A stretch of DNA of 64,000 nucleotides from Candidatus Wallbacteria bacterium (GCA_028687545.1 JAQTZZ010000003.1:1-64000); one strand, 5' to 3'; shown: positions 25,111-58,490, counted from the first letter of the stretch. Made by a program: numbers and translations. Notes: a model not told the origin generated them from the letters alone.

Positions 25111-25204
25111 GATGCAAATATTACCTGTCTGAAAATTTTACTTTAAACACAGACTCATGTTAATTAAATATAGCGGACTGGATTCAGGCAGAGAGGGATA
25201 AATA

Positions 25205-39606: not shown

Positions 39607-40215
39607 CTATAGTCCTAATTTATCCAGGCTGTTGTATACCTGCTGGATCGTCTTGTTCGCTCCACCTTCCAGGGCGTTGGCCTTATCGATCTGGGCTTGA
39701 GCCGGCACGGTCTGGCCGTTTTCAAAATAAGCCAAGGCCATCAGGGAGTGGGCTTCGGCATTGGAAAGGCTGAGTTTGCTTGAAAATACGTAGTTCACAT
39801 CTGATAAGCCCGCGCTTTCCAGATAACCGACTTCCTGATTGCCGGTGCGGGTGAGATAGATCATGGCCAGTCCGATCATGGCTTCTTTGTTTGCAGCATC
39901 TTCGGTCAGAGCAGTCGTGAACTTTGCAATCGTCTCGTCTGTGACCAGCGAAACTCCGTCCTCCCGAAGATCGATCCATCCCAGTCCGCTTCTTGCCGAT
40001 GCCTTGTCTGCTGCCGTAGATTCCTGATTCTGAAGCACTGCATTGAAAGTGCTCGTAGCAGAAGAGTAATTTGCGCCGTTCAAGTAGCTCCAGCCTGAGG
40101 TCACGGTATTGGCAGGCGGAGTAGTCCCTCCACCGCCTCCTCCACCACCACCTCCGCCGCAGCCGGAAATCACGAACAAGGCTGCCCCGATTATCAAAAG
40201 AAGTATGGCTTTCAT
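39607..40215 (-). CDS. small lipoprotein with TPR-like helices
   Basis: This is 202 residues. The signal peptide ends in a lipobox (FVISGC, Cys19), followed by ten consecutive glycines and then a helical domain with TPR-like spacing (SGWSYLNGANYSSATSTFNA, NKEAMIGLAMIYLTRTGNQE, NAEAHSLMALAYFENGQTV). It should be anchored in a membrane, likely the outer one. It starts 16 bp after the stop of the giant surface protein and is the last gene of that cluster. The Gly run is coded by GGC/GGA/GGT-type repeats and could vary in length. Confidence 0.75.
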   Translation of the reverse strand: MKAILLLIIGAALFVISGCGGGGGGGGGGGTTPPANTVTSGWSYLNGANYSSATSTFNAVLQNQESTAADKASARSGLGWIDLREDGVSLVTDETIAKFTTALTEDAANKEAMIGLAMIYLTRTGNQEVGYLESAGLSDVNYVFSSKLSLSNAEAHSLMALAYFENGQTVPAQAQIDKANALEGGANKTIQQVYNSLDKLGL

Positions 40216-40231
40216 TTGGCACCTCGCTTAG

Positions 40232-43200
40232 TTATTTCAGGATCGAGAACTTTCCTTCGAACTTGAGCCTGACTCCGTCCCGCACTGCTTCAAAGCGATA
40301 GAAATACACGCCATTGGCCAGTGGGTTGCCCTTCCTGCCGACCAGGTCGAACTGCTCCATTCCATTCGAACCGCTCAGATCGAGTGTTTTTACTTTTTTT
40401 CCGGAAGAGTCATAGATGATCAGTTTTGCTGACTCCGGAGTTCCGGAAAGTGAATACCTGACTGCGAGAAAATCTGTGGCAGGATTCGGGAACACCTGGA
40501 ACGTGTTCAGACTGAAAGGAAGATTCACTGCGAATCTGGTGGGAGCCAGCTGATTCTGGTTGCCTGCTTTGTCAGCGAGTTTGAACTGCAGCTGATAGTC
40601 CCCGTTTCCGAGAAATTCTCCGAATCTTACAGTCAGTTCTCCAGCTGCCGCATCGTAGCGGATCACCTGCGGTTTTCCATCCAGCGTGACTTCGCTGGAG
40701 CGCTCGTCAATTCCGGAACCGTATTCAGCGACTTTCAGGACGATTTCGTTGATCTTTTCCTTGTATTCCGGCTTGGCTTCAGTCAGAAGCCTGGGAGCCT
40801 TGGTGTCCTCGAACAGTCCGTATTTGCCGCTTTGCGAGGCAGGCGCGCTGAATGAACCGCCTGCATAATTGCGGCCGAGGAAGTTCCAGCGTTCATTCGC
40901 AAAATAATAAATTCCGGAACGCGGCGAGTCAGAGGCTTCGATTTTCAGAACTCCTGGTTTCGCTGCAGGGAAATAGAAAGAGTAAGCTGAACCGGTCTGA
41001 ACCAGTTCCCCTTCATAGGGAGCTCCTGAAGCAGGAGTGTTCAGGGGCGAATCCTGGAAGCAGACGATCGCTGCCTGCTCCTCTGTCAGATAGGAAAGAA
41101 GGGCCTGTTTGTCCGGGCTCGCGAGTGAACCTGTCTTGAAACTGCTCATTTCATAGACGAAATACATTGAGACTGTCCGGCCGCTGTCAGTCATTTTGAT
41201 CATGCCCAGTCCCGGATAGCTGCTTTTCAGGTGATATGCTCCTTTGAAGATATTGCTGCTCGAACCTGTAAGCTGCACAGTTGGGACTACCTCTGAGGTC
41301 GACATTCCGGTCTGCCAGATCACCAGCTGATGTGGAGAGCTCAGATATGCAGTCGGTTTTTTCAGATAGATCATCAGCGTGGTACCGTCTCCCGGCAGCG
41401 GGAAGGCTTCCAGCACATGATTTGCACAATTGGCGGCAGTGGTGAAATTGTAGGAGTAATCATCGCTCATGCTGTTGCCAGCCAGGTCTTTGCAGGAAGC
41501 TTTGACTGTGACAGTGTATCTGATGCCGTTGACCAGGGACGGGAAAGGACTGAAAGCAGCTGTCACTGTATCCGGATCATAGCTGAAATTTTGAACAGGT
41601 ATCAGGCGGGAACCGTTGGTCAGTGTGATCGTATCTTCTGAGATGGAATCCTGATCCATTGCTTCGCTGAATTTGATGCTGATTTCCTGTGTCAGAGGGA
41701 TACTGGTGGCATTTTCCACCGGAGTAACGGTTTCCACTACAGGAGGCTGGTTGTCAGACTCTGTGGTGAAATAAAGAGGACCGTCATTGTATGGATCGCC
41801 GCTGCTGATCGAAGAACCGCCGTCGACTGTAAAATAGTACCTTGTACTGTATTCCAGAGTGGGTGGAATGAACTTTTCCAGCCGCAGGGTTCCGATATAG
41901 GAGAGGGGAGATTTTGGAGAGATTTCGGGTCCGCTGAGACTGCCTTTATACAGCTTGATGATATGGCCGATTCCGTTGTCTGAAGTAAAGAAAGCCTGAA
42001 TTGAAGTGTCGATGCTGACATTGGACGCTCTGCTTGGCGGAATGGTGTGGCTGAGACCTGCTGCTGTGACGCCTCCCACAGTTTTGAACTGCAGCCTGTA
42101 GTATTCATATGAAAGGTTGGGCAGGCCGTCACCATCAGAGTCCAGCTTATGGCCATTGACGTCATAGACTGTTGCCATGATTTTAAGGTTGTAAGTCTCG
42201 TTTTCCGCGAGAGGAGTGGTCAGGATAGTGATCCTGATTTCCTTGGTGTCGACAGGTTCATTGATCGAGATCGGGATGATGGTTCCAGAGCTGTTGGTGA
42301 ACATGACCGAGGAAGTGCCTGCCGTGTTCAATGAATCCACTTCCATGGTATTGGTGAACTGCACGATGATCTCAGTCAATGATGTGGGAACCGTGTTCAG
42401 GTAATTATCCGGGATGGTTAGAACGACTTGCGGGTAGACTGTAGTCACGACCGGAGTTCCTGTCTGGAATCGCGAGGTGAACATGCTCTGCATTGTATTG
42501 CCCAGTGTGTCCTTGGAACTGCTGCCGACAACGACTGTATAGTAGAAATTTGTGATGAGTTCACCTGTGTCTGGATCAAAGGTGAGCACAGTCTGGGATG
42601 TGTTCCATGTTTTCTGGCCTGTGATCACTTCTCCGGTGTTGGAGACCAGGCTGAAGGAATTTCCCGTCACTGTCATATCCATGGCCTTGCTGAACGTAAC
42701 GACAATCACTTCGCTGCTGGAAACGTTTGTCTCTTCATTGGCCGGAGCAACAGAGACCACATATGGGAAATTCTGGGAAGTTGTCTGGAAACTGAAGATA
42801 TACTCGTCCAGAGGCGTACTGGAAAGATCGCCGTCAAAGCCGTTTCCTGCCAGGTCTTTGACCCCGTCTTCATTGATCGTCACTTTGTAGGTCTGGGTGC
42901 CGCCCAGCGGAACTATTGGAGTCAGCTCCGCCACATGGAGTCCCGATGAGTATTGGTCGAAATAGTGATAGAACGCATTGATCGGAACATTGCTCTGGTT
43001 GGTCAGGGAAATGGTGCTGGAATTGACGGTTGTCTCATCCACTGACTCGCTGAAATAGATCAGGATCTTGCTGTTAAGGCTTACGTTGAGGGAGCCGTTC
43101 TGCGGGTAGACTCCGTTCACAGTAGGTGGCATCTGGTCCGGATCAGGGAGGTTTTCAGTTTTAAAGGAGAATGGATAGTCGCTGATCAATGGAATTCCGC

Positions 43201-46200
43201 TCACATCTCTGCAGGAATTGGCCACTTTTACATAGATGTCCTTATTGAACGGCAGCGGATTCACCAGATTCAGATAGAATTTGGTGAGGTCCGACGGATT
43301 GTAAGTCACGGATGTGTTGAGCCTGGCCAGAACTTCACCGGTACCTGAAGCATTGGCGGTCAGCATGCTGGCAGTGATGCCGGTAAGAACTCTTGCTGCG
43401 TCCATGTTGTGATTGAACACGATTTCGATGCTGTCGAGCGTGTATCTGACATTTGTTGCCCCACTGGACGGACTGGTGCTGATGACCTTGACCACAGGCA
43501 GAGTGCCGAGGGTGTAAAAGTAGTATGTAAGGGTGTCAAGTTTGATGGTATTGGTATAGCCATCAAAATTGTTGCCATAGAGATCTTTGGCACCTGTCGC
43601 GACCTGCACTTTATACTGTTCGCCAGGTTGCAGGGTGTTGCTGGGATGGAAGGTCAGCTGATGGGGATGTGCTCCTGCGGTGTCCAGATAGGTTTTAGTG
43701 CCTCCAACCTGGTTTTCCTGGCTGTCCAGGAGAGAAAAGCCGTAATATACGCTTCCTTCATCCATGGTCTTGTTGAAGTAAAGCACAATGTCTGAACTCA
43801 GAGCTACATCGACTGAGTCCGGGCTGGGTGTCGTATAGTCCCTGACCCAGGTCGGCGTGAGAGTGTCGGGTATTGTATAGGCTTCAATCTTGAAATGATA
43901 ACTATAGTCCTGGAGCAGCCTGTTCCCGCTGGAGTTTGTGCAACTGGAGCCGATGCTGAGTTCGATGGTGGAGTTGTATGGCAGCGGATTTCTGGGCAGC
44001 AGATAGAAGTTCTTGAAATCCCCGCTCCAGGTGAGATTGCAGGCCAGACTGTTCTCTATGATGGTTTCCTTAGTGGTACCCGGCAGGATCACAGGCATCA
44101 GTTCCTTGGCGTTCAGTCCGGTGCTGATGCTCGCAGGGTCCATCGGATGGCTGAAATCGACTTCAATTGTACCGAGCAGGTGGGAAACATTGATTGCCCC
44201 GTCTGTCGGGATTGTCTTGAGCACCCAGGGGCTGACTCCTGTAGTGTAGAATACGAGCGAGAGGCCGTCCGCAGGAACTGTCTTGGGGATTCCATCAAAC
44301 AGGTTCCCTGAGAGGTCCTTGGCGGTATTTTCGATGATGACCTGGTACTTCACTCCTGCAGTCATGTCATAGGAGGGGTTGAAGACCAGTTCATTGCTGT
44401 GCGCTCCGCCGCTGCCGCGGTAGGCCAGGGTTCCTGTGATTTCATTGGAATCCTTGTCCAGCAGATGGAAGGCTTTATACAGGCTGCCTTCATCCATGGG
44501 TTTGGTGAAATAGATATAGATGTTGGCATCAGGGGAGACTTCAACCGACCCGTCCAGGGGGGAACTTAGAACCGTGTCCCAGGTCGGCTTGACTGTATCA
44601 GAGCCGCTTGCGGTTTCAGTAATGAATGTGAACAGGAAATCCGTGTCCTGACGGACTTCACCGTCTGCGCGCTGGCAGGTCGCCATTACTGTGACAGTGA
44701 TTGGCTTGCCATACGGCAGGGGGTTGTTGAGCAGCAGGTAGAATTTTGTTACCGGAGCTGTAGTAGCCGCTATTACAGTGGCCTGGAGGTGCTGGTCGTC
44801 CGCGACGGCATAGAGCCCTGCTGCCACGCTTGCGACATCCATGGGCTGGCTGAAATTGACTTCAACTGTCTGGAGCAGATGGGAAATATTGGTGGCACCG
44901 TCGGCAGGGATCGTGCTGAGCACAAGCGGACGGGCTGCCCCGGTTATGAAACTGATCTGCAACGGGTCATACTTGCTTGTGTTGCGGTTGCTGTCAAAGA
45001 AATTTCCGCTCAGGTCTTCAGCGCCTGGATTGGTATTTACGATAAAGATAAAGGCAGTGTCTGGTTTCAGGTCAAGGGTTGGCGTGAAGATCAGCTCGTG
45101 AGTGGAAGAACTCTCTCCTGAATCAAGGTAAGTCATAGTCCCTGCAACTTCCGGACCATAAGATTCCTGGGTGCCTTCAGTGCTGTTCAGTTCTCTGAGC
45201 GTGAATGCATTATAGAGACTGGCTTCATTCATGGATTTGGTGAAGAAAACGTGGATTTCGGCAGTAACAGGAATTTCCTCTGTAATCTGGTAGGGAGAGG
45301 TCGCAGTATACCAGGGTGGATAATGTGCAAGATTGACACTGCTGATCCAGGTTGGAATTGTGATGTCGCTGGAAGTACCGGTATTGAAGGTGAAGGCATA
45401 GTCAGAACTCATGCCGAGTTCATTAGTGTCGCGCAGGCAGGACTTCAGCACTGTGACTGTGATGGGTTTGTTATAGGGCAGTGGGTTTGTGAACAGCAGG
45501 TAGAATTTAGTAGTAGTGGCAACTCTTACAGCGGACTGGAGGCGCTGGCTGTCGCAGGAGGCATAGATCCCTGCGGCCACGCTCTCTGTGTCCATGGGCT
45601 GGCTGAAATTGACCTCGACTGTCCTGAGCAGGTGTGAAACGTTGATTGCGCCGTCTGCCGGGACTGTGCTGATCACAACCGGGCGGTTTGCGCCGGTGGT
45701 AAAGCTGTTCTGCAGCCTGTCATACTGATCAGTGTTACGGTTGGCGTCGAAGAAATTTCCGTTCAGGTCTCCTGCTCCCGGATTGGTGTACAGAGTATAG
45801 ACATAGACGGTATTGGCTTTCAGGTCTATGCTGGGCGTGAAGATCAGTTCATGGGTGGAACTGCTTTCTCCTGAATCCAGGTAGGCTATGCTGCCCGCGA
45901 CTCCAGGTCCGTCCTGCTCCTGGAGCGTGAATGAGCTGTAAAGAGAAGCTTCATTCATGGATTTGGTGAAGAAAATTCTGATGGAGCTGTTGATCGGGAT
46001 TTCTTCGGTAATCTGGTAGGGATAGGTCTCACTATACCAGGGAGGATTATGAGCAGGATCGGCCTTGCTGACCCAGGTTGGTATAGCATTATCCGAAGAT
46101 TTTTCAGTGGTGAAAGTAAAGACATAGTCAGCCGGCATCCTGATCAGATCCGGGGTAATGGACCTGCAGTTTTGTGAAATCGAAATCTGCACAAGGCTCT

Positions 46201-49200
46201 CATAGTGAACCGGGTTTTTCAGCTGCAGATAGAACTTCTTCGCATTCGTGAGAGTCGAAGGCAACCACTTCACTTCAGAACTCAGGTTTTGCCAGATGCC
46301 GTTTCCATCCTGAAGCTGGGCGCTGATGTTGTTTTTGACTGTGGAAGTTTCCATGGACTGGCTGAAATTGATCTCCACTGTGATTTCATTGGTTACATTT
46401 ATAGCACCAGCCGCGGGTAATGTGCTGACTACATGGGGCAGGGGGCTGCTGGTGGTGAAATTGAGAGTCAGCGGAATGGCGGCATTACCGGAAAAAGCCT
46501 CATTGCTGGTGAAGTTGTCTGTGTTCAAATCTTCAGCGCCCGGGTTGGTGTCTATGTGGAAAGTATAGCGGGCAAGAGGATTGAGTGGTACATAAGGCGT
46601 GAAAATCAGTTCATGGGTCGAGCTGTTCTCGCCTGAATCCAGATAGGCCTTGTCGCCTGCCACTACATGGCCGTCGTAGTCCTGCAGATAGGCGGCCATA
46701 TACAGCTTGGCTTCATGCATGGATGTATTGAAGAAGATCTTGATGGGATCGGTTAATGATACTTCAGTACTGTCCATGGAAGGTATTGTTCTACTGCTGA
46801 CCCAGGTGGGAATTTGTGTTTCAGCTGTCGATTCAGTCGTGAACGAGAACCAGTATTTATCCGGCATCTTTTCCCCGTCGTCTGACTCGCAGCTTCTGGA
46901 AACAATCATCCGCACAGTGTCTTTATAGGGAAGCGGATTTTTCGGGTGCAGGTAAAAAATATCTTTCGCAGCGTTCCATGTCACTTCAGCGGTCACAAAC
47001 TGCCATACATCGGTCTGATATTGCAGCTGAGCGCCGATGAAAGTTTTAGTCACATCCGGATTCATGGGCTCGCTGAATCTGATTTCTATTGTCTGGGTGC
47101 GGTTGAAAAGGTTCAGGTGAGATACATCAATCGCTCCATCGGCAGGCCAGGTGCTGATCACATGTGGCAGAGTGCTGCCTGTGGTGAAATTGTAGACCAG
47201 GTTATCCTTTGCAACCTCGGTAGTGATATAGGCGTCGAATTGATTCCCGCTGAGGTCATTGGCTACACTGTCAAACTGGATTTTATAGCTGACCAGTTCC
47301 GCCAGATTTTCGTAAGGCCTGAAAATCAATTCATGGGTTGAGCTGTTCTCGGAAGAGTCCAGATACAACTTTGTACCCCCGACTTCCTGGGTGTTTGGGT
47401 CGTAAAGATGGAAAGCCCTGTACACGCTGGCTTCATCCATGGATTCAGTGAAGAAAATATGGATTTCGCTGGTGACAGCCACTTCGATACTGTTGATGGA
47501 AGGCGACGTCTCGCTGTACCACTTGGGAGTATGGGTCAGATCGATCCTGCTGATCCAGGTGGGGGAAACTGTGTCGCTGACCGGGTTGTTTTCGGTAGTG
47601 AAAGTGATCACTGCATCATCTTTCATCCTGGTTTCGCTGGTGGAACAGCAGTTTCTCATTACCCTGATGCTGATGTTCTTGTTATAGGGAAGCGGGTTCA
47701 GGAAATGGAACATGAAATCATTGGTAGGTGAAGCAGTGTAATCAACGTAACCCTGAATCTCCTGGGAGTCATAAAATGCACGGATGGAATTAATTACAGT
47801 TGCGGTATCCATCATGTGGTCGAAGACTATCTCCACTGTCGCTATATTGTTGGAGACATTGTTTGCTCCATCCGCAGGGATTGTGCTCTGGACCTTTGGT
47901 TTGCTGCCATGGGTATTAAATGCGTAAGTCAGCGTTTCCATGGTCTCGGTGGTAAGCAGGGCATCAAAGGAATTCCCGCTCAGGTCTATGGCATATCCTA
48001 TGCTTTCAGGGGATTTGTAGCTCATCAGTTCGACCGTGTATTGCTCGGCTTCCTGGAAACTATAGCTTGGCTTGAAGCTCAGCAGATGGTTGGGGCTGTC
48101 TGTATAGACCAGGCTTCCGCTGACCATGTTCCCTTCAGAGTCGATCAGGTGGAAAGACGGACTGAGCGAAGCTTCATTCATGGATTTGTTGAAAGCGATC
48201 TCAACCGAACTGGCGATCGCTACTTCCGTGCTTCCAGGATAAGGAGTGGTGCGGGACTGCGCCTGCGGGACAAGGTCTCCATCCCAGGTGGGACGGGTAA
48301 TGTCGTGGGTGCCTTCGCTTTCCGTCTCGAAAGTGGCGGAGAAGGTCGGATTGTATTTCATTCTGGACCCTTGGGCGCTTCTGCAGTTGTTGAGAGCGAT
48401 CAGGTAAATGGTCGTGTCGTAAGGCAGAGGGTTTTCGACTTCGAGCGTGAATGTTTTGGCAGGGACTGCAGGCCAGTTGAGCTGGCTGGTTTTCAGGGGT
48501 TCCAGGCTGCCTCCATAGAAGATGGCTACCTGAAGTCCCTGGGACACAGAGGTCGGATCCATATCGTGGCTGAAAGTGAAACTCACCACTTCTTTGGTCC
48601 GGTTAACTTCTGTGGTGCCATTGCTGGGATTGGTGCTTATCACCCAGGGCGCAGCGCCGGGAGTGGCAAATTTGAAGACCAGGGGTTCCAGGGCCGGAGT
48701 GTTCAGGTATCTGTCAAAGCTGTTTCCCCAGATGTCCTTGGCATTGCTGTTGACCTCCACTGAATAGATCTCAGTATTCTTGAATCCGCCTGTGGGGATA
48801 AAGCTCAGTTCATGGGCTGCACCAGGTCTGACAGCCGGGTCCTGATAGTTCAGCTGCCCTATCACCTCGTTTTCAGCGCTGTCTTTCACTATGACAGCAG
48901 TCCTGAGGCTGGCTGCATCCATGACTTTGCTGAAATCGATGTAAATTGCGGAGTTTGTGTTTACTTCCACTGAATTGTGCTGCGGGCTGATCGAGGTCTC
49001 TGAAGTTATGGTCGGTCTGGTGGTGTCAGAAAATGTCGCAGAGACAGTTCTGAAAGATACCAGGCTTGCTTCACCAGAGTAGTCCGGGCTGGAAGAGAGA
49101 GGCACCCCGTTCAGATTCCGGATGGCGTGGCTGTAGCTGAATGTGTAATCTGAATTAAAGGCGAGATAGGAGGCTGGGTGGAACACTACCCTGTATGGCG

Positions 49201-52200
49201 ACAGGAATCCGTTCGGAACATACTGATATTCCACTGTGCCTAAGACTTCATTGTCCAGGCTGACTTCATGGCTGCATTTGAACAGCCTGACACTGTTGCA
49301 TCCCCACTTAGTCTCCACTGAATGCGAATCCAGCGGCGAATCGAAAAAGATTGTGATTTCAGTGGAAGCGTAATTTACCGGAACTTCAGTGGTCCTGTCC
49401 ACGCCTGTCTGATTAGCCAGCGGATCAGTGGTCAGGACATGCGGCACATCCTTGATCACATTGAAAGTGAATGATCTGGAGAAGATAGAGGTTCCGGCTA
49501 AGCTTACAATGCCTGGCAGAACTGTCGGATGATCGGATGCTTCCGGGCCACCGTCATTGTATGAGTTGGGTCCTGCATAAGGCACATCCGCCAGATTGGT
49601 CTGCTTGTTTTTGCCTGCCAGCATGATCGAGCAGACTCCGCCGATTTTGAACAGATTGTTGTTGAAATCAAGCACTACTATTGTTTTGCCGTCATTGCTC
49701 TGATCCTGCATGTAATAAGAATTGTCGAGCGGAGGCCCTCCGATTCCAGGCACGGTTTCCGCTGTTGTGGTCAGCTGATACCATTGATAGCCGCCATTGT
49801 TGTAAAGGCTGATCCAGAGGCTGTTCAGCTCTCCTGTCTTGTCCATGCGCTCTGAAAAGAGAAATTTAACGTTGATGTCCGGATTGAAGAACTGCTTGGT
49901 CTGGCCTGAGGTGTTTGTGTAAACTCCATTTTTTTCAGTGTAATTCACTCCATTTTCTTCAACAATTGCTTCGACTGTCGGTTCAGTCAGAGCAGTGAAC
50001 ATTGTAGCTGTGAGCGAATCGCTGTCAATCACATTGCCTGCCCTGTCGATAATGGTTCCGCTGACTACTCCACCCAGAGTATAATGGGCGTTAGGATCCA
50101 GGTAGGACGGACCGGCAGAGAAGTAATCAAACACTTCTACCGATGAGCCATAGAAAGAAGTGTCCCCTACTTTCCAGGTGGCTGAGAAAAGATTGATTGG
50201 ATTGGGATCCTTTGACTCGACTTTTTCACTGGAGATCAAGACGTCATCCTGCTTCAGGAAATCGAACAGATTTGAGGCGCTGATCGAAGGCAGCACAGGT
50301 GCGGCATTGGTCTGCGTACCGCTCCCTATGAATACAGGCTCGTCGAAATTCAGGGTGAATCCTGTATACATGGGGATGGGATCCTGGCCTGACAAATATG
50401 TAACAGGGTTTGGATTTGGAGACTGATCTTTCTGAAGCGAGCCGTCCAGATGATTGAAAAAGTAAGTCGGCATGAAAGTCATTTTTGGTTTGACTGAGTC
50501 CACGTGTATCACAAAAGTGCTTTCACATTGATTGCCTGCCCTGTCAGTGACTGTTGAAGTCAGTTCATAATCTCCGTCTGCAGGGAGGCCTCCTTTGACT
50601 TCGAAAGTGGCATTGCATTTCTGGGAAACCGGGTCTGAAGCGAGTACTTCCACGGTTTTATTGCCCATTGAGCTGGACAGGTTGAAAAAGCTGTCATAGG
50701 ATGGTGCAGGTCCGATCTTGGGTGAAGCATAGAGGTATGAATTTTTCTCAATGTAATTCACGCAGACTTCAAAAGTGGTGTTTTTCTTGAAATACGATCC
50801 TGAATCAACGACTATGGTCGGGTTTTTGGCGTCTATGATCGCTTTAGCAGTCAGGCCGATCAGTTCAGGCGTGACCACTACATCATTGATCACAGGCGGA
50901 GTGGTATCAATTGTGACGCAGGTTGAAGAATAAGGGGTGACTGTATGATTTCCGGCAGCATCCATCAGCCTGACTAGAATTCTTCCATTGTTAGCGTCCG
51001 GGCTTCCTACTGATACTTTTTTATTGGTGAAAGTGGCCATATAGTCTGAGGAGATGGTGTTAGGACTTGAACTGTCTGATCCAATGTTTCCCAGGTCCAG
51101 TATGATGTCTGAATCGGTCATGGCGCTCTGGTTGCCTGCATCGTCATAATAAAAGGTGACCTGGAAATTGTCGCCTGCAGGCAGGTAAATGGCAGGCCAT
51201 TGGCTGGCTGCCAGTTCCGAAGTGTCGAAAGACAGGCTCTTGGTGGTGTTCGAGAATACCAGACAATTGAAATCAGGTACAGTATCGTCAATCATGATAT
51301 TGTAGTAGGATTTTTCCAGGACGTTTCCTGCCTTGTCAGTGATATAGAGTGTAATGGTCTTGCCTGCTGCAACACCGACCGTGTCTACCTGAAAGTTGTT
51401 GTCAAACATGATGGTGCCTTTGGTCGAGGCCACAGTCGGTGGAACAACGGCAGCTTCATGAGTAGCATTGACTATGATGTTTTGGAGGTCCAGGTAATAA
51501 TCATTCTGGTCAAGGGAGATATTGTCTTCTGTGAAAGACACCTGGATCCTGAAATGCGAGCCTCCATTCGGTGCATATGGCGGGGAATTCTTGCCCTTGA
51601 GATAGGCCGGCGTAGTCGGCGTTGTCAGAGGCCAGGATCTCATGGACTGATTGTCCCAGCCCCAGTCGTCGTTGTAGATTGTGATGGAATCTACCACAGG
51701 CGAGATGCTGTCCACCTGCAGTGTGAAAGTGGCTGAAGAGGAAAGGCGTTCAGGCTTGATCCCTGGAATATAATCTGAAACAGTGATGATCACTGCCTGG
51801 GGAGAGCTTCTGCCGGGATCGATCGAGATCGGATACCAGGATCTGACAATGGAGTCTGCTTCCTGGTCTGTCTGCGAGGTCGGTGCGATTGTCAGAGACC
51901 CAAGATCGCAGATGTATCCTGTGGAAGTTTCATCTGTATTGTCGTCCCTGAATCTGACCCTGATCTCCATGGTACCTGTAGCAGCCACTGGTCCCACCGA
52001 GTTGCCTGACAGATAGGGGCTGGTAATCTGCCATCTCTTACCCATGCAGCGTACTTCGATCGAAGAGATCACAGGTGCTAAGGAGTCGATACCTACATGC
52101 GGCTGCCATTCCATAGGATTGTCTGTTGCTGAATCATGACCGCCGGCGCTGATCTTGACTTCCTGGCTGTTCCCGTCTGTGCAGTGGACAGGGATCGAAA

Positions 52201-54334
52201 CCGCGTCCACGCCGATGTCAAAATGCTGAGAAATCTTGCCGCTCGAGCTTCCGACATAAGCGATGACTTCATAAGTGGCTGCCCTGTCGACTGTAACTGA
52301 ACCGTTCACCGTGACTTCTGTGGAACGGGTTTTATAACCGTCTGTCGGGGATGTGACATCAATGTGATTCACGCCTTTCGCAGTGCTGTTCACCATCAGG
52401 GTGAAAAAGACTGTAGTGTATATGTGCTGCGGATCTGCTCCGGCATAGTCATCCGGGACATTGATGGTTACCCTCTGGTTAACGATTTTGTTGGCCGGAA
52501 TATTAACCGGGTACCAGTACTTTTCGTACCATCCTCCGGTAGGTCCCTCGAGCGGCATCCCCTGGGGTGCTGTGGTCAGAGTCCCCAGATCGCAGAGGTA
52601 ATCAGATTCCGTTGCGTCGTGATGGAGCGCGTCCTTGAACGAAATCCGGATTTCCATAGTTGGATCTTTGCCAACAGGACCTACCAGGTTATTGGTGGCG
52701 TAAGGTGAATTAAGGATTGTGACTACTGTGTTTTCATCAGGGTCAAGATAGGTTATTTCGATTGATTGGACTTCAGGAGGAGTGCCGTCAATATCCATGG
52801 TCCAGCCTTCATCGTCTAAAAATGCTTCAGCAGAGGCATAAAAGGCACGGGACGTTCCATCCACGCAGCCTTCCACTGTGACAGGAAAGGTGTAAGTCCC
52901 GGCTGCGCCGAATGTGCGTGAAGCATAGGCGGTTTTTGTGCCTACATGAGCTTCGACTGTGACTGTATCCGGCGCATTGATTGTTATCTCTGTTGTCAGT
53001 ATGACTTCACTGGAACGGGCCAGGTAGCCATTATCAGGCTTTAAAATCTTGAAGTCAGTCACTGCATAAATAGTGATTTTTTTTGTGGTGGCACTTACGC
53101 CTTTGCAGGTGGCAGAGACTGTCTGAGATGGACCTGTCAGGCAATTATGCACTTCGACAGTAGCTATTTGATGCCCACTGGTAAAAACGCAGACAGTAGA
53201 CCCTGACTTTGTCCCGACAGTGGCAAAGACTTCAGCTGTCGCATCTAAGAACGGACCAGGGGAATCCACTTCGCAGGTCACAATGATTTCAGTTGTATAC
53301 AAAATCGCGTTATTTGTCGGACTGTTGATCGTGACACTCGTCGGGGCTACTGTATAAATATTGATGGTCGGTGCCGGAGCATGCAGCACGGTTGAATCAA
53401 GCCCGTCGACAGTAACTTTGACTGCCTGGGCTGTTCCTGCTGCGCAAGCGCTCACCAGGATCGGAAAAGTTTCGGTCCCTGCACCTGCGAAAACGTGCGA
53501 AACCACACCGGATTTTGCTCCGACAAGAGCGGTCACTGATCGTGTGCAGGCCTCGAAAACCGTCACTCTGGCCTGTACTGTAATTTCCTGGGTATAAAAA
53601 GTAGATCCAGTAGTCGGAGAAAAGACCTGGCAGTCGGTCACAGGATAAATGTTGATTTTTACCGCAGTCGCATTGCTGTATGTCCCGTTGCACAGCACCT
53701 TGACATACTGGTTGACACCAGTGACGCAGTTTACGGGGATCGTAATGCCTGAGTCTGTCCCTGAAGTGCCGGAAAATGTATGTGTGATATGTGCTTCATG
53801 TGTGCCGATGTAAGCGTAGACTTCAGCAGTCACTCCTGCTACTCCATTAGTATCATATGTCACGCTGCAGACCACATTATTCGCTGTAGCGTATAGGTTT
53901 GCTCCATTGGCAGGACTGGTCACTGTACAGTTGCTCACATCTGCCCATTTGATATTTATCTTTTGTGCTGTGTAGAAATCAGTAGAATCTTTTGATCCGC
54001 TCCCGTCTACATCGGCATGGACTGTTTGATTGAGCCCGCCTACGCATGACACTGTAATGTCAAAAGAATGGGTCCCTGATGAAGTGCTGAAATTATATGA
54101 AGTGTGAGTATGTGCTGCTGCTCCGACGTAAGCAGTTACATTTCTGGTGCCACCTGTGCCACCAGACCAATCCACAGTGATGTGCGCTGTGACTTCTGTT
54201 GTATAGAAGATAGCGCCATCTATCGGTGTCTCCACTGTAATATCATCAATAGTGAATGCCGCCATTGCTGCCTGGGCCCAGCCCAGCAGCAGGATGAACA
54301 GCAGCAGGCTGATTGAACTCCGGATTCTGCTCAT
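40232..54334 (-). CDS. 4700-residue multi-domain Ig-repeat surface protein
   Basis: A single uninterrupted frame of 14.1 kb. Residues 1-25 are a signal peptide (SLLLFILLLGWAQAAMA). Residues 25-750 hold six Ig-like modules of about 85-100 residues, each with a TSPTxG..[LF]YTTEITV start. Residues 750-1770 include DSI...YND-type Ig modules and irregular regions. Residues 1770-4330 are bacterial Ig-like (SbsA/Big_5) units arranged as a super-repeat of about 225-250 residues: an A unit (PTWVSS...SMNEASLY...STHELIFTP...DLSGNFFD) followed by a B unit (VVSTVPADGAINVSHL...FSQPMD...NPLPY). About eight A/B pairs are seen. The C-terminus (about 4610-4700) is a FlgD-Ig/Por-tail-like domain (FQVFPNPATDFLAVRYSL...NGVYFYRF...GKFSILK), like sorting domains of secreted proteins. 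I infer a giant surface adhesin or sheath. Its ATG overlaps the stop of the lipoprotein gene upstream. Confidence 0.9.
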   Translation of the reverse strand: MSRIRSSISLLLFILLLGWAQAAMAAFTIDDITVETPIDGAIFYTTEVTAHITVDWSGGTGGTRNVTAYVGAAAHTHTSYNFSTSSGTHSFDITVSCVGGLNQTVHADVDGSGSKDSTDFYTAQKINIKWADVSNCTVTSPANGANLYATANNVVCSVTYDTNGVAGVTAEVYAYIGTHEAHITHTFSGTSGTDSGITIPVNCVTGVNQYVKVLCNGTYSNATAVKINIYPVTDCQVFSPTTGSTFYTQEITVQARVTVFEACTRSVTALVGAKSGVVSHVFAGAGTETFPILVSACAAGTAQAVKVTVDGLDSTVLHAPAPTINIYTVAPTSVTINSPTNNAILYTTEIIVTCEVDSPGPFLDATAEVFATVGTKSGSTVCVFTSGHQIATVEVHNCLTGPSQTVSATCKGVSATTKKITIYAVTDFKILKPDNGYLARSSEVILTTEITINAPDTVTVEAHVGTKTAYASRTFGAAGTYTFPVTVEGCVDGTSRAFYASAEAFLDDEGWTMDIDGTPPEVQSIEITYLDPDENTVVTILNSPYATNNLVGPVGKDPTMEIRISFKDALHHDATESDYLCDLGTLTTAPQGMPLEGPTGGWYEKYWYPVNIPANKIVNQRVTINVPDDYAGADPQHIYTTVFFTLMVNSTAKGVNHIDVTSPTDGYKTRSTEVTVNGSVTVDRAATYEVIAYVGSSSGKISQHFDIGVDAVSIPVHCTDGNSQEVKISAGGHDSATDNPMEWQPHVGIDSLAPVISSIEVRCMGKRWQITSPYLSGNSVGPVAATGTMEIRVRFRDDNTDETSTGYICDLGSLTIAPTSQTDQEADSIVRSWYPISIDPGRSSPQAVIITVSDYIPGIKPERLSSSATFTLQVDSISPVVDSITIYNDDWGWDNQSMRSWPLTTPTTPAYLKGKNSPPYAPNGGSHFRIQVSFTEDNISLDQNDYYLDLQNIIVNATHEAAVVPPTVASTKGTIMFDNNFQVDTVGVAAGKTITLYITDKAGNVLEKSYYNIMIDDTVPDFNCLVFSNTTKSLSFDTSELAASQWPAIYLPAGDNFQVTFYYDDAGNQSAMTDSDIILDLGNIGSDSSSPNTISSDYMATFTNKKVSVGSPDANNGRILVRLMDAAGNHTVTPYSSTCVTIDTTPPVINDVVVTPELIGLTAKAIIDAKNPTIVVDSGSYFKKNTTFEVCVNYIEKNSYLYASPKIGPAPSYDSFFNLSSSMGNKTVEVLASDPVSQKCNATFEVKGGLPADGDYELTSTVTDRAGNQCESTFVIHVDSVKPKMTFMPTYFFNHLDGSLQKDQSPNPNPVTYLSGQDPIPMYTGFTLNFDEPVFIGSGTQTNAAPVLPSISASNLFDFLKQDDVLISSEKVESKDPNPINLFSATWKVGDTSFYGSSVEVFDYFSAGPSYLDPNAHYTLGGVVSGTIIDRAGNVIDSDSLTATMFTALTEPTVEAIVEENGVNYTEKNGVYTNTSGQTKQFFNPDINVKFLFSERMDKTGELNSLWISLYNNGGYQWYQLTTTAETVPGIGGPPLDNSYYMQDQSNDGKTIVVLDFNNNLFKIGGVCSIMLAGKNKQTNLADVPYAGPNSYNDGGPEASDHPTVLPGIVSLAGTSIFSRSFTFNVIKDVPHVLTTDPLANQTGVDRTTEVPVNYASTEITIFFDSPLDSHSVETKWGCNSVRLFKCSHEVSLDNEVLGTVEYQYVPNGFLSPYRVVFHPASYLAFNSDYTFSYSHAIRNLNGVPLSSSPDYSGEASLVSFRTVSATFSDTTRPTITSETSISPQHNSVEVNTNSAIYIDFSKVMDAASLRTAVIVKDSAENEVIGQLNYQDPAVRPGAAHELSFIPTGGFKNTEIYSVEVNSNAKDIWGNSFDRYLNTPALEPLVFKFATPGAAPWVISTNPSNGTTEVNRTKEVVSFTFSHDMDPTSVSQGLQVAIFYGGSLEPLKTSQLNWPAVPAKTFTLEVENPLPYDTTIYLIALNNCRSAQGSRMKYNPTFSATFETESEGTHDITRPTWDGDLVPQAQSRTTPYPGSTEVAIASSVEIAFNKSMNEASLSPSFHLIDSEGNMVSGSLVYTDSPNHLLSFKPSYSFQEAEQYTVELMSYKSPESIGYAIDLSGNSFDALLTTETMETLTYAFNTHGSKPKVQSTIPADGANNVSNNIATVEIVFDHMMDTATVINSIRAFYDSQEIQGYVDYTASPTNDFMFHFLNPLPYNKNISIRVMRNCCSTSETRMKDDAVITFTTENNPVSDTVSPTWISRIDLTHTPKWYSETSPSINSIEVAVTSEIHIFFTESMDEASVYRAFHLYDPNTQEVGGTKLYLDSSENSSTHELIFRPYENLAELVSYKIQFDSVANDLSGNQFDAYITTEVAKDNLVYNFTTGSTLPHVISTWPADGAIDVSHLNLFNRTQTIEIRFSEPMNPDVTKTFIGAQLQYQTDVWQFVTAEVTWNAAKDIFYLHPKNPLPYKDTVRMIVSRSCESDDGEKMPDKYWFSFTTESTAETQIPTWVSSRTIPSMDSTEVSLTDPIKIFFNTSMHEAKLYMAAYLQDYDGHVVAGDKAYLDSGENSSTHELIFTPYVPLNPLARYTFHIDTNPGAEDLNTDNFTSNEAFSGNAAIPLTLNFTTSSPLPHVVSTLPAAGAINVTNEITVEINFSQSMETSTVKNNISAQLQDGNGIWQNLSSEVKWLPSTLTNAKKFYLQLKNPVHYESLVQISISQNCRSITPDLIRMPADYVFTFTTEKSSDNAIPTWVSKADPAHNPPWYSETYPYQITEEIPINSSIRIFFTKSMNEASLYSSFTLQEQDGPGVAGSIAYLDSGESSSTHELIFTPSIDLKANTVYVYTLYTNPGAGDLNGNFFDANRNTDQYDRLQNSFTTGANRPVVISTVPADGAINVSHLLRTVEVNFSQPMDTESVAAGIYASCDSQRLQSAVRVATTTKFYLLFTNPLPYNKPITVTVLKSCLRDTNELGMSSDYAFTFNTGTSSDITIPTWISSVNLAHYPPWYTATSPYQITEEIPVTAEIHVFFTKSMNEASLYNAFTLRELNSTEGTQESYGPEVAGTMTYLDSGESSSTHELIFTPTLDLKPDTAFIFIVNTNPGAEDLSGNFFDSNRNTSKYDPLQISFITGAARPLVLSTIPADGATNISHLLQTVEVNFSQPMDVASVAAGLYAVADDQHLQATVIAATTAPVTKFYLLLNNPLPYGKPITVTVMATCQRADGEVRQDTDFLFTFITETASGSDTVKPTWDTVLSSPLDGSVEVSPDANIYIYFTKPMDEGSLYKAFHLLDKDSNEITGTLAYRGSGGAHSNELVFNPSYDMTAGVKYQVIIENTAKDLSGNLFDGIPKTVPADGLSLVFYTTGVSPWVLKTIPTDGAINVSHLLGTIEVDFSHPMDPASISTGLNAKELMPVILPGTTKETIIENSLACNLTWSGDFKNFYLLPRNPLPYNSTIELSIGSSCTNSSGNRLLQDYSYHFKIEAYTIPDTLTPTWVRDYTTPSPDSVDVALSSDIVLYFNKTMDEGSVYYGFSLLDSQENQVGGTKTYLDTAGAHPHQLTFHPSNTLQPGEQYKVQVATGAKDLYGNNFDGYTNTIKLDTLTYYFYTLGTLPVVKVISTSPSSGATNVRYTLDSIEIVFNHNMDAARVLTGITASMLTANASGTGEVLARLNTSVTYNPSDLTKFYLNLVNPLPFNKDIYVKVANSCRDVSGIPLISDYPFSFKTENLPDPDQMPPTVNGVYPQNGSLNVSLNSKILIYFSESVDETTVNSSTISLTNQSNVPINAFYHYFDQYSSGLHVAELTPIVPLGGTQTYKVTINEDGVKDLAGNGFDGDLSSTPLDEYIFSFQTTSQNFPYVVSVAPANEETNVSSSEVIVVTFSKAMDMTVTGNSFSLVSNTGEVITGQKTWNTSQTVLTFDPDTGELITNFYYTVVVGSSSKDTLGNTMQSMFTSRFQTGTPVVTTVYPQVVLTIPDNYLNTVPTSLTEIIVQFTNTMEVDSLNTAGTSSVMFTNSSGTIIPISINEPVDTKEIRITILTTPLAENETYNLKIMATVYDVNGHKLDSDGDGLPNLSYEYYRLQFKTVGGVTAAGLSHTIPPSRASNVSIDTSIQAFFTSDNGIGHIIKLYKGSLSGPEISPKSPLSYIGTLRLEKFIPPTLEYSTRYYFTVDGGSSISSGDPYNDGPLYFTTESDNQPPVVETVTPVENATSIPLTQEISIKFSEAMDQDSISEDTITLTNGSRLIPVQNFSYDPDTVTAAFSPFPSLVNGIRYTVTVKASCKDLAGNSMSDDYSYNFTTAANCANHVLEAFPLPGDGTTLMIYLKKPTAYLSSPHQLVIWQTGMSTSEVVPTVQLTGSSSNIFKGAYHLKSSYPGLGMIKMTDSGRTVSMYFVYEMSSFKTGSLASPDKQALLSYLTEEQAAIVCFQDSPLNTPASGAPYEGELVQTGSAYSFYFPAAKPGVLKIEASDSPRSGIYYFANERWNFLGRNYAGGSFSAPASQSGKYGLFEDTKAPRLLTEAKPEYKEKINEIVLKVAEYGSGIDERSSEVTLDGKPQVIRYDAAAGELTVRFGEFLGNGDYQLQFKLADKAGNQNQLAPTRFAVNLPFSLNTFQVFPNPATDFLAVRYSLSGTPESAKLIIYDSSGKKVKTLDLSGSNGMEQFDLVGRKGNPLANGVYFYRFEAVRDGVRLKFEGKFSILK

Positions 54335-55992
54335 TGTGTCACCTCACCTGTACTTGTGCCGCCTGTGTAGCGGGTCATGATTACAGGCACTGTCATGGTT
54401 TTTCCTTCTTCCAGGATGAAGTAGTCAGTACCTGACTGGTTATAGCGATAGTCGCCATTGACCCTGGCAGGAGTGCCGACAGTTTCCACGTATTCGCACT
54501 TGATCTTGTAAATGCCTGAGAACAGGCTGTCCACGGTAAAGCGATAGCCGATCAGTGTGAATCTGCTGGAAACATCGATCGGTACTTCCGTGTATTCGGA
54601 GAGATCCAGGCCTGCGGCAGTGGTAGTGGTGGTTTCCTTGGTGGTTGAGGTCTCCTGGGTCCCGGTCGTGCCTGAAGTTCCGGTGCCGGTGCCGCCTGTG
54701 GTAGTGGTGCTGGTACCTTCCGGAAGCTTGACCATCCGTAAGAGCTTGAGGCTGATCAGAGTTTTGTCCACTGTCAGATAGGCATATTTGCCGCCACTGG
54801 AAGTATAGAATTCGCCCTCCACTTTGGATGAGGGATTGTTGTTCACCATGTTCACCTCAACCTTGGTCTTGTCTTCCTTGGGCAGGAATTTCAGGTCCAT
54901 GCTGAGTGTCTCGAAATTTGTTTTCCGGAAAAGGACAGTCTGCTCACCCGGCGGGATGTTCATCAGCAGAAAATCGCCCTGCGAGTCTGACTTGGTAGTA
55001 GTGGAGCCGTCCTTGACAGTGATGTCTGTCTGTTCCAGCCCGAGTCCTGTAGCCGGGTCTGTCACGCGGCCGGCCAGAGTGGCCTTATAAGGCTGGATCC
55101 GGATCACTTTCACAGTTTCGCCGCCTGCAGCTGTCAGATTCAGGCTGTCGGATTTCTGGTAATAGCCGTCTTTTTTTAACAGCAGGTTGTAGGTTTTCGG
55201 CCCCAGGCTGGCCATGTAGACCATCCCGTCCTTGTCTGAGTACCATGAATCGATCACTACATCCGACCCTTCGATGATCACCTGCACGCCTTCCACAGGG
55301 TTGCTGTTGTTGGCATCCAGAATCTGAAGCGCTACTTCCGAATAGTCGTTTTCCATCACAAGCGTAGCATTGGCATAGCTCTCAGTCCCATAGGTGAAAA
55401 CAGGCAGGCTCTTCGAGGTCTTGCCGTCTAAAGAGAAAGTCAGGGTGTGGTTTCCAGAGGTTACATTGGCATAGAAGTATAAGCCGTTCGGATTGGTATA
55501 GGCTGTCTGGCCGTCAAGTGTCACCTTCACCTCAGGAATGCCTTTGCCGAATCCGTCCAGGGTATAGCCGCTGACTGATCCTGCCTTGGATGAGGTCAGG
55601 CCGAAAGTTTCAGTCAGCATCACATTGGACTGGCCGGTCTGATCGATGAGCACGGATTTTTCATAGAGATTGAACCCGCTGGCTTCCACGCGCAGGGTAT
55701 AAGTCTTGGCTGCCAGAGGCCCTTCGAATGTATAAAACCCGTTGTAAATGGATCTGGTCTCGCGCTTTGTGATGCCGTCGGTCAGGATCACCAGCGCATT
55801 GCAGACCGGAGCATTGGAGACAGCGGCAGTCACGGTTCCTGTGAAAACGACGGCCCCGACTGTGGCGCCGAGATTCCTGTCAGCCACCATGCTGTTGAGC
55901 ACTGAGGTATTATCATTGTGGCAGCCGATCAGAAAAATCAGCGAGAGCGTGGCAGCCGTGATAGTCATCAGTATCTTGATCCGGGTTCTCAT
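54331..55992 (-). CDS. lipoprotein with carboxypeptidase-regulatory-like repeats
   Basis: This is 553 residues. The lipobox is SLIFLIGC (Cys24). Several modules of about 75-90 residues follow the carboxypeptidase regulatory-like/Cna_B plan: AVVFTGTVTAAVSNAPVCNA, VSGYTLDGFGKGIPEVKVTL, LAGRVTDPATGLGLEQTDIT, each with a G-x-Y-x-F-x-[GN] type middle. A Thr/Gly low-complexity linker (about 425-460, GTGTSGTTGTQETSTTKETT) precedes a final beta domain. It is probably an outer-membrane-linked beta-stalk. Its last codons overlap the first of the giant gene, so the two are probably translated together. Ribosome site GGGAGG. Confidence 0.85.
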   Translation of the reverse strand: MRTRIKILMTITAATLSLIFLIGCHNDNTSVLNSMVADRNLGATVGAVVFTGTVTAAVSNAPVCNALVILTDGITKRETRSIYNGFYTFEGPLAAKTYTLRVEASGFNLYEKSVLIDQTGQSNVMLTETFGLTSSKAGSVSGYTLDGFGKGIPEVKVTLDGQTAYTNPNGLYFYANVTSGNHTLTFSLDGKTSKSLPVFTYGTESYANATLVMENDYSEVALQILDANNSNPVEGVQVIIEGSDVVIDSWYSDKDGMVYMASLGPKTYNLLLKKDGYYQKSDSLNLTAAGGETVKVIRIQPYKATLAGRVTDPATGLGLEQTDITVKDGSTTTKSDSQGDFLLMNIPPGEQTVLFRKTNFETLSMDLKFLPKEDKTKVEVNMVNNNPSSKVEGEFYTSSGGKYAYLTVDKTLISLKLLRMVKLPEGTSTTTTGGTGTGTSGTTGTQETSTTKETTTTTAAGLDLSEYTEVPIDVSSRFTLIGYRFTVDSLFSGIYKIKCEYVETVGTPARVNGDYRYNQSGTDYFILEEGKTMTVPVIMTRYTGGTSTGEVTQ

Positions 55993-56047
55993 CGAGCCTC
56001 CCTATTAGAAAGTATTAAAAATCCAAATTTCATAATCATGCCCCTTT

Positions 56048-57499
56048 TCAATGTATGCACTCGTTCCAGAAATTCATTCCTGTATCAGCTTTGATATAAT
56101 CATTGGCCGGGAGATTGGTAAAAAGCGGAGCAACTTCATATAAAATATTGATTGTATTGATGTCTGACGAAGAGAGCTCAGGCCGCGGCAGGGAATAAGT
56201 CGGAAGCTTCAGAGTCGAACCGAACATCACATCCCCTTCATTGTAGCTGTGTCCCCACAGGCCCAGGGCGTGGCCGATCTCGTGCAGAGCCAGGTATTCG
56301 CTGGCAGCGTTGTCGATCAGCCCTCTGCCATTGTAAGGATCGACTGCAGTCAGCAGAACCACTGGCTTGTGCAGAAACAGGCCTGCCATGTTACTGGCTG
56401 GATTGGAAGCCAGTGTCAGGCCGAGCAGGCTGGCAGTAGAAGTTTCGCTCGTGGAACTCGTAGAGGTTGGCTCTACATTGATCTTGTTTGTCCAGTAAAT
56501 GGAGAGGTCTGCCACTGCAGGATCATCAGTCACAACGAATGAAAGAGCAGGACAGGCTGTGGCCCATTCATTGAGCGCGTTCCTGGCATTGCTGTGCAGT
56601 TTGTCCAGCACTATGGAAAGAGGGGACAGGATTTCCAGGCTGTTGATAAAAGCAGTCTGATTATCCACGCTCTGAAATGAAACATCCATGGTTTCCGGAG
56701 GAGTGAGGAGAAATTCTCCTCCACCGTTTATGGAATTCGGATCAGGATAACTAATGGTGCTTATTTTATCCGAACTGTCGATTATTGACTGAGGAATTAC
56801 GATCGGATCTTTGCAGGTCACGAAATCGCCCAGATAGACCTTGACCGGCATGTCCAGAAATCTGCGGGAAGATATCCTGAGTCTTTTTTCAGGAGCATCG
56901 TCATCAAACCTTATCAGGCGACTGATATAGGCATAGTAGTTAGGAGTGCGCACTGACGGGACTTTTGGCTGATATTCCAGCAGATTTTCCCCAGGCTGGA
57001 GCAGAATGTCGATCGATTCAGTCTTGAATCCAGGCACGAACATTTCCAGTTTGTGGAACCCCACGTTAAGATCATTGATCCCTGCAAGGTAATTACTTGT
57101 ATTAAAGAGTGTCGAATCTTCGACTGCCCATTTATTCTGGATCAGCTTGTCATTATCGACTCTGATCAGAGCTTTAGGATGCCAGTAAATTGATTCCGCT
57201 CCTGTAACTTCCGTTGACTCTATGACATAGCTCAGGACATTTTCAATGGGAGTAATATGATTGCTGCCGTTGTCATGATATCCAACGCCAAACCAGAAAC
57301 CATTGTAAGAAGTCTGAGACCTGAGGTAGCGGACCTTGACTGCCAGATTGGCTTTGCCGTCGCTTCCCTGCGGCGTATAAGGCAGCAGGCTGAAGGGCAC
57401 GCTGGTGCCTGACCCGTCATCCTTGCAACCCAGGAACATGGTTGCAAACAGCAGCAGGCTCGCATACAGGAGCTTCTTCAGTCTGGATTTATTTGCCAT
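56048..57499 (-). CDS. matrixin-like zinc metalloprotease lipoprotein
   Basis: This is 483 residues. The lipobox is LLFATMFLGC (Cys25). The C-terminal third carries the zinc site HEIGHALGLWGHS (His406, Glu407, His410, His417) and a downstream Met of the Met-turn in GDVMF. This is the HExxHxxGxxGH form found in bacterial matrixins. The N-terminal 300 residues are beta-rich and unrecognised. It is likely anchored at the envelope and could process other proteins of this cluster, perhaps the giant, but no substrate is shown. It lies 55 bp before the carboxypeptidase-regulatory-like lipoprotein gene. Confidence 0.85.
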   Translation of the reverse strand: MANKSRLKKLLYASLLLFATMFLGCKDDGSGTSVPFSLLPYTPQGSDGKANLAVKVRYLRSQTSYNGFWFGVGYHDNGSNHITPIENVLSYVIESTEVTGAESIYWHPKALIRVDNDKLIQNKWAVEDSTLFNTSNYLAGINDLNVGFHKLEMFVPGFKTESIDILLQPGENLLEYQPKVPSVRTPNYYAYISRLIRFDDDAPEKRLRISSRRFLDMPVKVYLGDFVTCKDPIVIPQSIIDSSDKISTISYPDPNSINGGGEFLLTPPETMDVSFQSVDNQTAFINSLEILSPLSIVLDKLHSNARNALNEWATACPALSFVVTDDPAVADLSIYWTNKINVEPTSTSSTSETSTASLLGLTLASNPASNMAGLFLHKPVVLLTAVDPYNGRGLIDNAASEYLALHEIGHALGLWGHSYNEGDVMFGSTLKLPTYSLPRPELSSSDINTINILYEVAPLFTNLPANDYIKADTGMNFWNECIH

Positions 57500-57557
57500 T
57501 TTTTCCTCTCAACCCTTTGAAATCCCGATTCCTGGCAGAGGTCTGCCCCTGCATTTT

Positions 57558-58490
57558 TCAGAACGTATACGTCATTCCGCCCGAGTAGATCGCATCTGAG
57601 CCGTTGAAGAGATTCAAGGCTGCGAAATCCAGGGAGATCCTGGAATGGCGGTATCTGGCCCCGCAGTTGAAAGCCAGGTTGTTGTCGTCATTGATGTAAT
57701 TGCCCCAGAGCTGCTTGGCTTCAGCGAGCAGCGAAGTATATCCCAGGCGGTATTCCAGTCCTGCTCCGGCGATTGCCAGATCCTGGCGTTCGATGTGGAT
57801 CGGAGGGATGTCTGTGCTGCGGATGAAGGTGTTTTTCAGGGAAAAGTTCGTGAACAGCCTGGGGCTGACCTGATCCGAGATCGCGATGTAATAGCCGTTC
57901 ATCTTTTCCAGGTCCATGTAATCCATCAGGAGCTGATCCTCATTGCTGAGATTCGTGTATTGCCCGCCGAAAGCGACGGCTTTTCCCTTGTAAGGAGTCG
58001 CCAGCTTGAAGTGGAATGTGGCGAATTCCTTGCGGATGGAGTAATTGACATTTGCCGGAATGCTGCTTATGTCATTGTTCACTGAAATGAAGTTCACTCC
58101 GCATTCAGTGTTTTTTCTGACTCCGTAGTTAAGGGAACCTATGTATTCCCATTTTTTGGATTGATATGCCGCTCCCTGCAGATTGAAATCGCCGTCCGAG
58201 TAAAGCATGTGGCCTGCCACGTTGCAGTAACCGTGCGAGGCGATGAAGGCAGTGGGAAGTTCGATCAGTCCTGTGCAGCCCGAGAGGCAGAGTCCTCCGT
58301 CTCCCAGCGAGAGTTCAGCCAGCCGTGAAAAGTACGAAACCGGATATTGTTCGTCGTCTGCCGGCGGTTTCTGCTTGTTCAGGATCTCGTCCTTATAGCT
58401 GTATCCGATCTGCTGCAGGGCATCATCCACCTGCTCTGCAAAGGCACAGGCAAAATTGAAAAAGACAAAAAAGATGATTATTTTTTTCAT
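57558..58490 (-). CDS. putative outer-membrane beta-barrel protein
   Basis: This is 310 residues with a signal peptide (MKKIIIFFVFFNFACAFAEQ). The mature part alternates hydrophobic and polar residues in strands (EYIGSLNYGVRKNTEC, FATFHFKLATPYKGKAVAFG) and ends ...IYSGGMTYTF, with the terminal Phe typical of BAM-inserted barrels. It resembles PorV/PorQ-like or general long-chain-type barrels in layout, but I cannot assign a family. As first gene of the five-gene cluster it could anchor or export the giant protein. The ribosome site AGGGG is acceptable. Confidence 0.7.
   Translation of the reverse strand: MKKIIIFFVFFNFACAFAEQVDDALQQIGYSYKDEILNKQKPPADDEQYPVSYFSRLAELSLGDGGLCLSGCTGLIELPTAFIASHGYCNVAGHMLYSDGDFNLQGAAYQSKKWEYIGSLNYGVRKNTECGVNFISVNNDISSIPANVNYSIRKEFATFHFKLATPYKGKAVAFGGQYTNLSNEDQLLMDYMDLEKMNGYYIAISDQVSPRLFTNFSLKNTFIRSTDIPPIHIERQDLAIAGAGLEYRLGYTSLLAEAKQLWGNYINDDNNLAFNCGARYRHSRISLDFAALNLFNGSDAIYSGGMTYTF

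Follow-up and report, generated by a model that had tools for sequence, protein, structure and literature searches.

The closest described counterparts of the gene arrangement reported here belong to the type IX secretion system (T9SS), which passages of two published accounts describe as specific to Bacteroidota (PMC7463736, PMC10202324). Its type B substrates in F. johnsoniae are often encoded in linkage with cognate shuttle genes of the PorP/SprF kind, and a PorE homologue is also present in five such operons (PMC12618676). The PorE-PorP-PG1035 complex of P. gingivalis supports anchoring via such partners (PMC9143113).

Here, we describe a cluster of five exported proteins in a 64,000-nt stretch of DNA (the window, to which unprefixed coordinates refer) carried by a 4.54-Mb draft genome, G000, of Candidatus Wallbacteria. 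A search of the open-access literature returned nothing on secretion or surface proteins of these bacteria. The cluster was compared across 37 genomes (G000 to G036), all assigned to one phylum by GTDB. The sole same-family relative of G000 in this set is Candidatus Wallbacteria isolate STB_16 (G001), while Candidatus Muiribacterium halophilum (G002) shares the phylum and belongs to a different family. A large family in the set, f5, probably corresponds to the Riflebacteria, an assignment that is our own.

Results

Five same-strand ORFs were confirmed between positions 39607 and 58490, all on the minus strand. The first in transcription order encodes a barrel protein of 310 aa (57558..58490) with a signal peptide, an unstructured or plug-like N-terminus carrying an LSGxxGLIxIPTA-type motif, and 12 long beta strands. 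It is followed by a 483-aa lipoprotein with a matrixin-like (M10) domain (56048..57499), a 553-aa lipoprotein with four carboxypeptidase-regulatory-like (CPD) domains (54331..55992), a giant secreted protein of 4700 aa (40232..54334), and a 202-aa TPR lipoprotein (39607..40215) in which a poly-Gly tether follows the lipobox cysteine. In this order, gaps of 58 bp and 55 bp follow the first two genes, the third and fourth share 4 bp in an ATGA-type overlap (54331-54334), and 16 bp separate the last two. The translations of all five products show signal peptides and lipoboxes. The initial annotation had described five exported, co-oriented genes around a giant whose ATG overlaps the previous stop, and this layout was verified throughout. 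Pfam searches of the cluster matched Peptidase_M10, CarboxypepD_reg (four copies), Big_5 (21 copies), and TPR_19, and returned nothing for the barrel.

A strong terminator-like hairpin of 10 pairs (58734-58707, minus strand) lies between an upstream lemA-like gene and the barrel gene, setting the cluster apart from the former. The same hairpin scan, whose total count was within the range of shuffled sequences, found no minus-strand hairpin of comparable strength inside the cluster, and promoter-like matches were no better than chance level. Elsewhere in the window (23968-26344), two adjacent paralogous ORFs of 380 and 379 aa both carry the end DVW(T/S)CRPSRF.

The initial annotation had staked its reading on the gene order being conserved in relatives, and this order is kept in Muiribacterium (locus L026), where a barrel, an M10-like protein, a CPD lipoprotein, a second CPD lipoprotein, a giant of 2238 aa, and a TPR lipoprotein follow one another, i.e., all five genes in the same order with one CPD lipoprotein added. 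The three proteins aligned between the window and Muiribacterium (barrel, TPR, and M10) are 22-32% identical. Because the order is kept in an independent genome, the cluster is not a chance arrangement; it is real and conserved. In the Wallbacteria relative, the giant and TPR lipoprotein are retained along with the genes that lie beyond the TPR gene (L078); a contig ends within its barrel gene (L025), and its genome gave no M10-like match.

The giant begins with a Sec signal peptide, recognized by inspection (MSRIRSSISLLLFILLLGWAQAAMAAF), continues through N-terminal Ig-like repeats and 21 Big_5 domains, and ends in a conserved C-terminal module of 235 aa (40235..40939, minus strand) that combines an Ig-like (Big_13/Big_3_2) domain with a T9SS-type tail. 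Within the latter, a Por_Secre_tail / FlgD_ig sorting-type domain spans residues 4614-4683 (40286..40495, minus strand) and scores above the curated cut-offs of both PF18962 (29.6 bits, cut-off 27) and TIGR04183 (28.9 bits, cut-off 23). The protein closes with the residues GKFSILK. By model score, then, the tail is a member of the T9SS type A sorting family. PF18962 was matched by 22 of 23 sampled tails, and FlgD_ig scores as well as Por_Secre_tail. Tail-bearing proteins occur in every genome of the phylum set except G019 (n = 37), usually several to a genome and reaching up to several thousand residues, and in most genomes several proteins keep the 235-aa module. Two other routes were considered and rejected for the giant: type I secretion, given its N-terminal Sec signal and a cluster with no ABC exporter gene, and a PEP-CTERM/exosortase route, given that it ends in a beta-type tail with no C-terminal membrane helix.

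The TPR lipoprotein is predicted by AlphaFold to form TPR-like helix pairs (pLDDT 85); its PDB matches, all with E of at least 0.001, were to designed TPRs, MamA, and the pilotin PilF. It is the partner of the tail protein well beyond this cluster. Across the 37 genomes, 81 of 129 tail genes have a TPR lipoprotein gene within 400 bp downstream on the same strand, where about 0.02 such pairs would be expected by chance. Conversely, 95 of 112 TPR lipoprotein genes sit behind a tail gene, and several of the remaining genes are at the edge of a contig or follow a broken tail gene. Not every tail protein needs such a partner, since 43 of the 129 have no TPR lipoprotein within 900 bp. The very end of the tail is near-invariant (K[ILF]AVLR). 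Where pairs do occur, the distance matrices of tail and TPR partner are correlated at r = 0.90 (51 pairs, 27 genomes). Shuffling the TPR partners within genomes gave a mean of 0.37 and a maximum of 0.61, with 0 of 2000 shuffles reaching the observed value, so the pairs are inherited as units. Linkage of adjacent genes alone could explain this co-inheritance, which is thus no proof of contact. Beyond the phylum, tail proteins also precede four of the five best TPR matches (L105, L107, L108, and L109), and two of these clusters include a PorV-like gene. The giant and its TPR lipoprotein therefore form a repeated, phylum-wide pair that is the core of the cluster, and this carries the finding beyond one isolated locus. 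In a limited search of open-access papers, we found no description of such pairing.

Variants of the pair were seen at other loci. On another contig of the window's own genome (L073:3851-6195, contig C10), the gene for a 564-aa tail protein overlaps that of a TPR lipoprotein and, by inspection, a carbohydrate-binding-like gene and then an SLH-domain porin-like gene lie behind this small pair. Family f5 contains tandem giant-TPR-giant-TPR arrays, followed by a PorV-family gene in one case (L082:2245-13804) and by a CPD-like lipoprotein in another (L079:1629-16203). One Muiribacterium tail gene (L087:16054-19979, contig C73) has an in-frame TGA in the tail domain just before the TPR lipoprotein gene, which could reflect a pseudogene or an assembly error.

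The phylum was then compared with models of T9SS machinery. PorV/PorQ-family proteins score over the cut-off of NF033709 in 33 of 37 genomes, including that of the window, and 17 of 41 such genes directly adjoin a tail gene or the gene of a TPR lipoprotein. None of the phylum members scanned reached the equivalog-level models for PorV and PorQ, and the Pfam PorV model PF19572 matched nothing anywhere, a result that is misleading taken alone, as NF033709 detects the family. In the window's genome, a tail protein gene overlaps the PorV-family gene that follows it (L166:3148-6487, contig C20), and another PorV-family gene lies right behind a lipoprotein gene (L167:2832-5442, contig C14). The motor protein GldM (TIGR03517) is absent from the 37 genomes; the model does detect it in G101, a genome of another phylum (E = 3e-108). 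Full-length SprA was likewise not found in the 37 genomes, by a model that detected it in no positive control, G101 included. What that model did return, in 33 of 37 genomes, was a short sub-threshold match at about model positions 591-714. This SprA-like stretch (best E 1.5e-14) lies in a beta-barrel-like protein of roughly 820-1100 aa (L070:4560-7016, contig C25, in G000, and homologues across 33 of the 37 genomes). There is usually a single such protein in a genome, and it is a candidate reduced translocon. A PDB search with the SprA-like proteins gave no match. In several genomes, the peptidase region of the PorU model NF033707 gave a match below the cut-off, and the giant tails match the model's C-terminal region. 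PorE has a multidomain architecture, and the cluster has no homologue of it, the 202-aa lipoprotein consisting of TPR repeats only.

The 12 long strands of the cluster's barrel were predicted by AlphaFold (pLDDT 75). Its best Foldseek match is FapF (5o67; TM about 0.51-0.54), followed by autotransporter and COG4313 barrels, a likeness at the level of fold only at TM about 0.5. It has no Pfam or NCBIfam family, the PorP/SprF and PorV models included. Two-partner or type V secretion was rejected, as the barrel has 12 strands, has no POTRA domain, and is not fused to the giant.

Barrel homologues were found in 22 of 57 genomes searched, every one in the window's phylum, and a search among named genomes with a three-row barrel alignment recovered the two known relatives alone. 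In most genomes of the phylum, a CPD lipoprotein gene adjoins the barrel gene, mostly with no giant gene beside them; in most f5 genomes it lies directly before the barrel gene, which is usually followed by a HEAT-repeat-type protein (checked with Pfam in L028 only). Two f5 loci (L028:2084-13554 and L030:11613-15578) illustrate this unit, the HEAT-repeat protein bearing a C-terminal membrane helix; L028 lies, by inspection, near gspE/F- and pilMNO-like genes. The barrel and CPD lipoprotein are a second phylum-wide module, joined to the giant and TPR module in the window and in Muiribacterium. Four genomes (G004, G008, G011, and G014) have giant and TPR pairs and no barrel homologue.

The M10 match in the window scores 35.1 bits (Pfam cut-off 24; E = 1.5e-8), and the protein has an intact HExxH zinc motif, third histidine, and Met-turn (HEIGHALGLWGH...DVMF). 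The zinc-binding motif occupies residues 406-417 (56249..56284, minus strand). Among the 36 relatives, only Ca. Muiribacterium has a homologue, the other 35 genomes searched having none, and the alignment places KAIGKALGLLGS at the position of HEIGHALGLWGH, i.e., the catalytic residues are lost. Protease activity is therefore not a conserved part of the set, and the processing of the giant by this protein, as first proposed, is weak. Rather than acting as a required protease, this lipoprotein probably has a binding or structural role.

Discussion

The reading that we consider best, at a probability of roughly 0.55, is that the five genes make up an operon-like unit serving a single giant surface protein, which takes a type IX-secretion-like route and is held by its own TPR lipoprotein. 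The surface system as a whole would be T9SS-like and motor-less, with every giant accompanied by such a lipoprotein. After export by Sec, the 4700-aa giant would use its Por_Secre_tail-type domain to cross the outer membrane and reach the cell surface, passing through a divergent translocon whose genes lie elsewhere in the genome. There, the Gly-tethered TPR lipoprotein would hold it by binding the tail or an adjoining region. The barrel and CPD lipoprotein would constitute a second outer-membrane module, recruited to the giant's operon in the Wallbacteria/Muiribacteria lineage. The initial annotation had been right about the cluster itself; it had omitted the C-terminal T9SS-type tail, the phylum-wide giant and TPR pair, and the PorV-family proteins elsewhere in the genome. 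Its proposal that the system anchors the giant is upheld as far as the tight tie between giant and TPR lipoprotein goes, by pairing and co-inheritance, and anchoring by a dedicated TPR lipoprotein, perhaps through direct contact with the tail, is a plausible and the best reading of that tie.

The five genes may instead be two independent modules that share an operon by chance, the barrel and CPD lipoprotein (possibly with the M10-like protein) having an envelope function of their own and the giant and TPR lipoprotein forming a surface unit, with no five-part system. That most genomes of the phylum encode the barrel with a CPD lipoprotein and no giant, that giant and TPR pairs occur elsewhere, and that the M10 catalytic residues are not conserved would all fit. 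This account is rather unlikely, though it deserves a serious minority share of belief: Muiribacterium, from a different family, shares the joint order with proteins only 22-32% identical, CPD lipoproteins in f5 also follow giant and TPR pairs, and the genes in the window are separated by short gaps with one pair overlapping. We find it improbable, by comparison, that the barrel is the giant's dedicated exporter, of two-partner, autotransporter, or FapF type, with the lipoproteins anchoring and the M10 protein processing the product. It was this model that the initial annotation favored; its conserved exported set and tightly tied partner lipoprotein find support, while barrel export and M10 processing do not. 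The barrel does come first in the same unit, and its best fold match is a polypeptide transporter, FapF, with autotransporter barrels next. However, the TM-score is only about 0.51-0.54, and COG4313, a general porin channel family, scores alike. Export of the giant by the barrel is also weak because the barrel is usually encoded elsewhere, with a CPD lipoprotein and away from giants, and genomes with giant and TPR pairs can have no barrel homologue; the M10 active site, moreover, is lost in Muiribacterium.

Similarly improbable is a tail that is a FlgD-Ig-like domain with no role in secretion, in which case the giant would be a scaffold in the periplasm or bound to the wall, and the TPR lipoprotein would tie it to the outer membrane. 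The equal scores of FlgD_ig and Por_Secre_tail, and the failure to find GldM or full-length SprA in the 37 genomes, speak for such a scaffold; yet tail and TPR genes have PorV/PorQ-family barrels as neighbors, the extreme end of the tail hardly varies, as in sorting domains, and 4700 aa of Ig repeats would be unusual for the periplasm.

Returning to the type IX-like reading, a broader version of it would have this phylum, and perhaps others, use T9SS-related export without GldM, in which a reduced SprA-like barrel works with PorV-family shuttles to export giant tail proteins and a dedicated, co-inherited TPR lipoprotein captures each giant. We offer this version tentatively, as possible rather than probable. 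Were it correct, the TPR lipoprotein would represent a type of partner as yet undescribed in T9SS. Tail proteins, together with PorV-family barrels and a constant TPR partner, outside Bacteroidota and without GldM would make the logic of the sorting tail older or broader than its machine. The tail and TPR pair would additionally supply a partner through which the retention of giant surface proteins can be tested, and its recurrence across the phylum points to an undescribed way of handling such proteins.

Among known systems, the FapF and COG4313 channels share with the window's barrel a fold class of 12 strands and an N-terminal extension. They differ in that the match is only at TM about 0.5 and 10-12% identity, and no Fap amyloid families were found among the five cluster proteins. 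The giant resembles SiiE-type Ig-repeat adhesins, which use type I secretion, in its thousands of residues of bacterial Ig-like domains; unlike them, it has an N-terminal Sec signal and a T9SS-type tail, and its cluster has no ABC exporter gene. The likeness to T9SS extends further. The giant has a Sec signal, a C-terminal sorting-type domain, the build of a giant repeat adhesin-like substrate, and an adjoining cognate partner; operons of substrate, barrel, and PorE homologue are known (PMC12618676, PMC9143113), and PorV/PorQ-family proteins are present in the window's phylum. In contrast to T9SS, no GldM motor and no full-length SprA were found in this phylum, and the cluster's barrel matches neither the PorP/SprF nor the PorV model. 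The partner differs too, being a small TPR lipoprotein, and the known shuttle-linked pairs are of type B, not of type A (PF18962/TIGR04183) like the tail here. The tail and TPR pairs follow the same logic as the substrate and partner operons of T9SS, with different parts.
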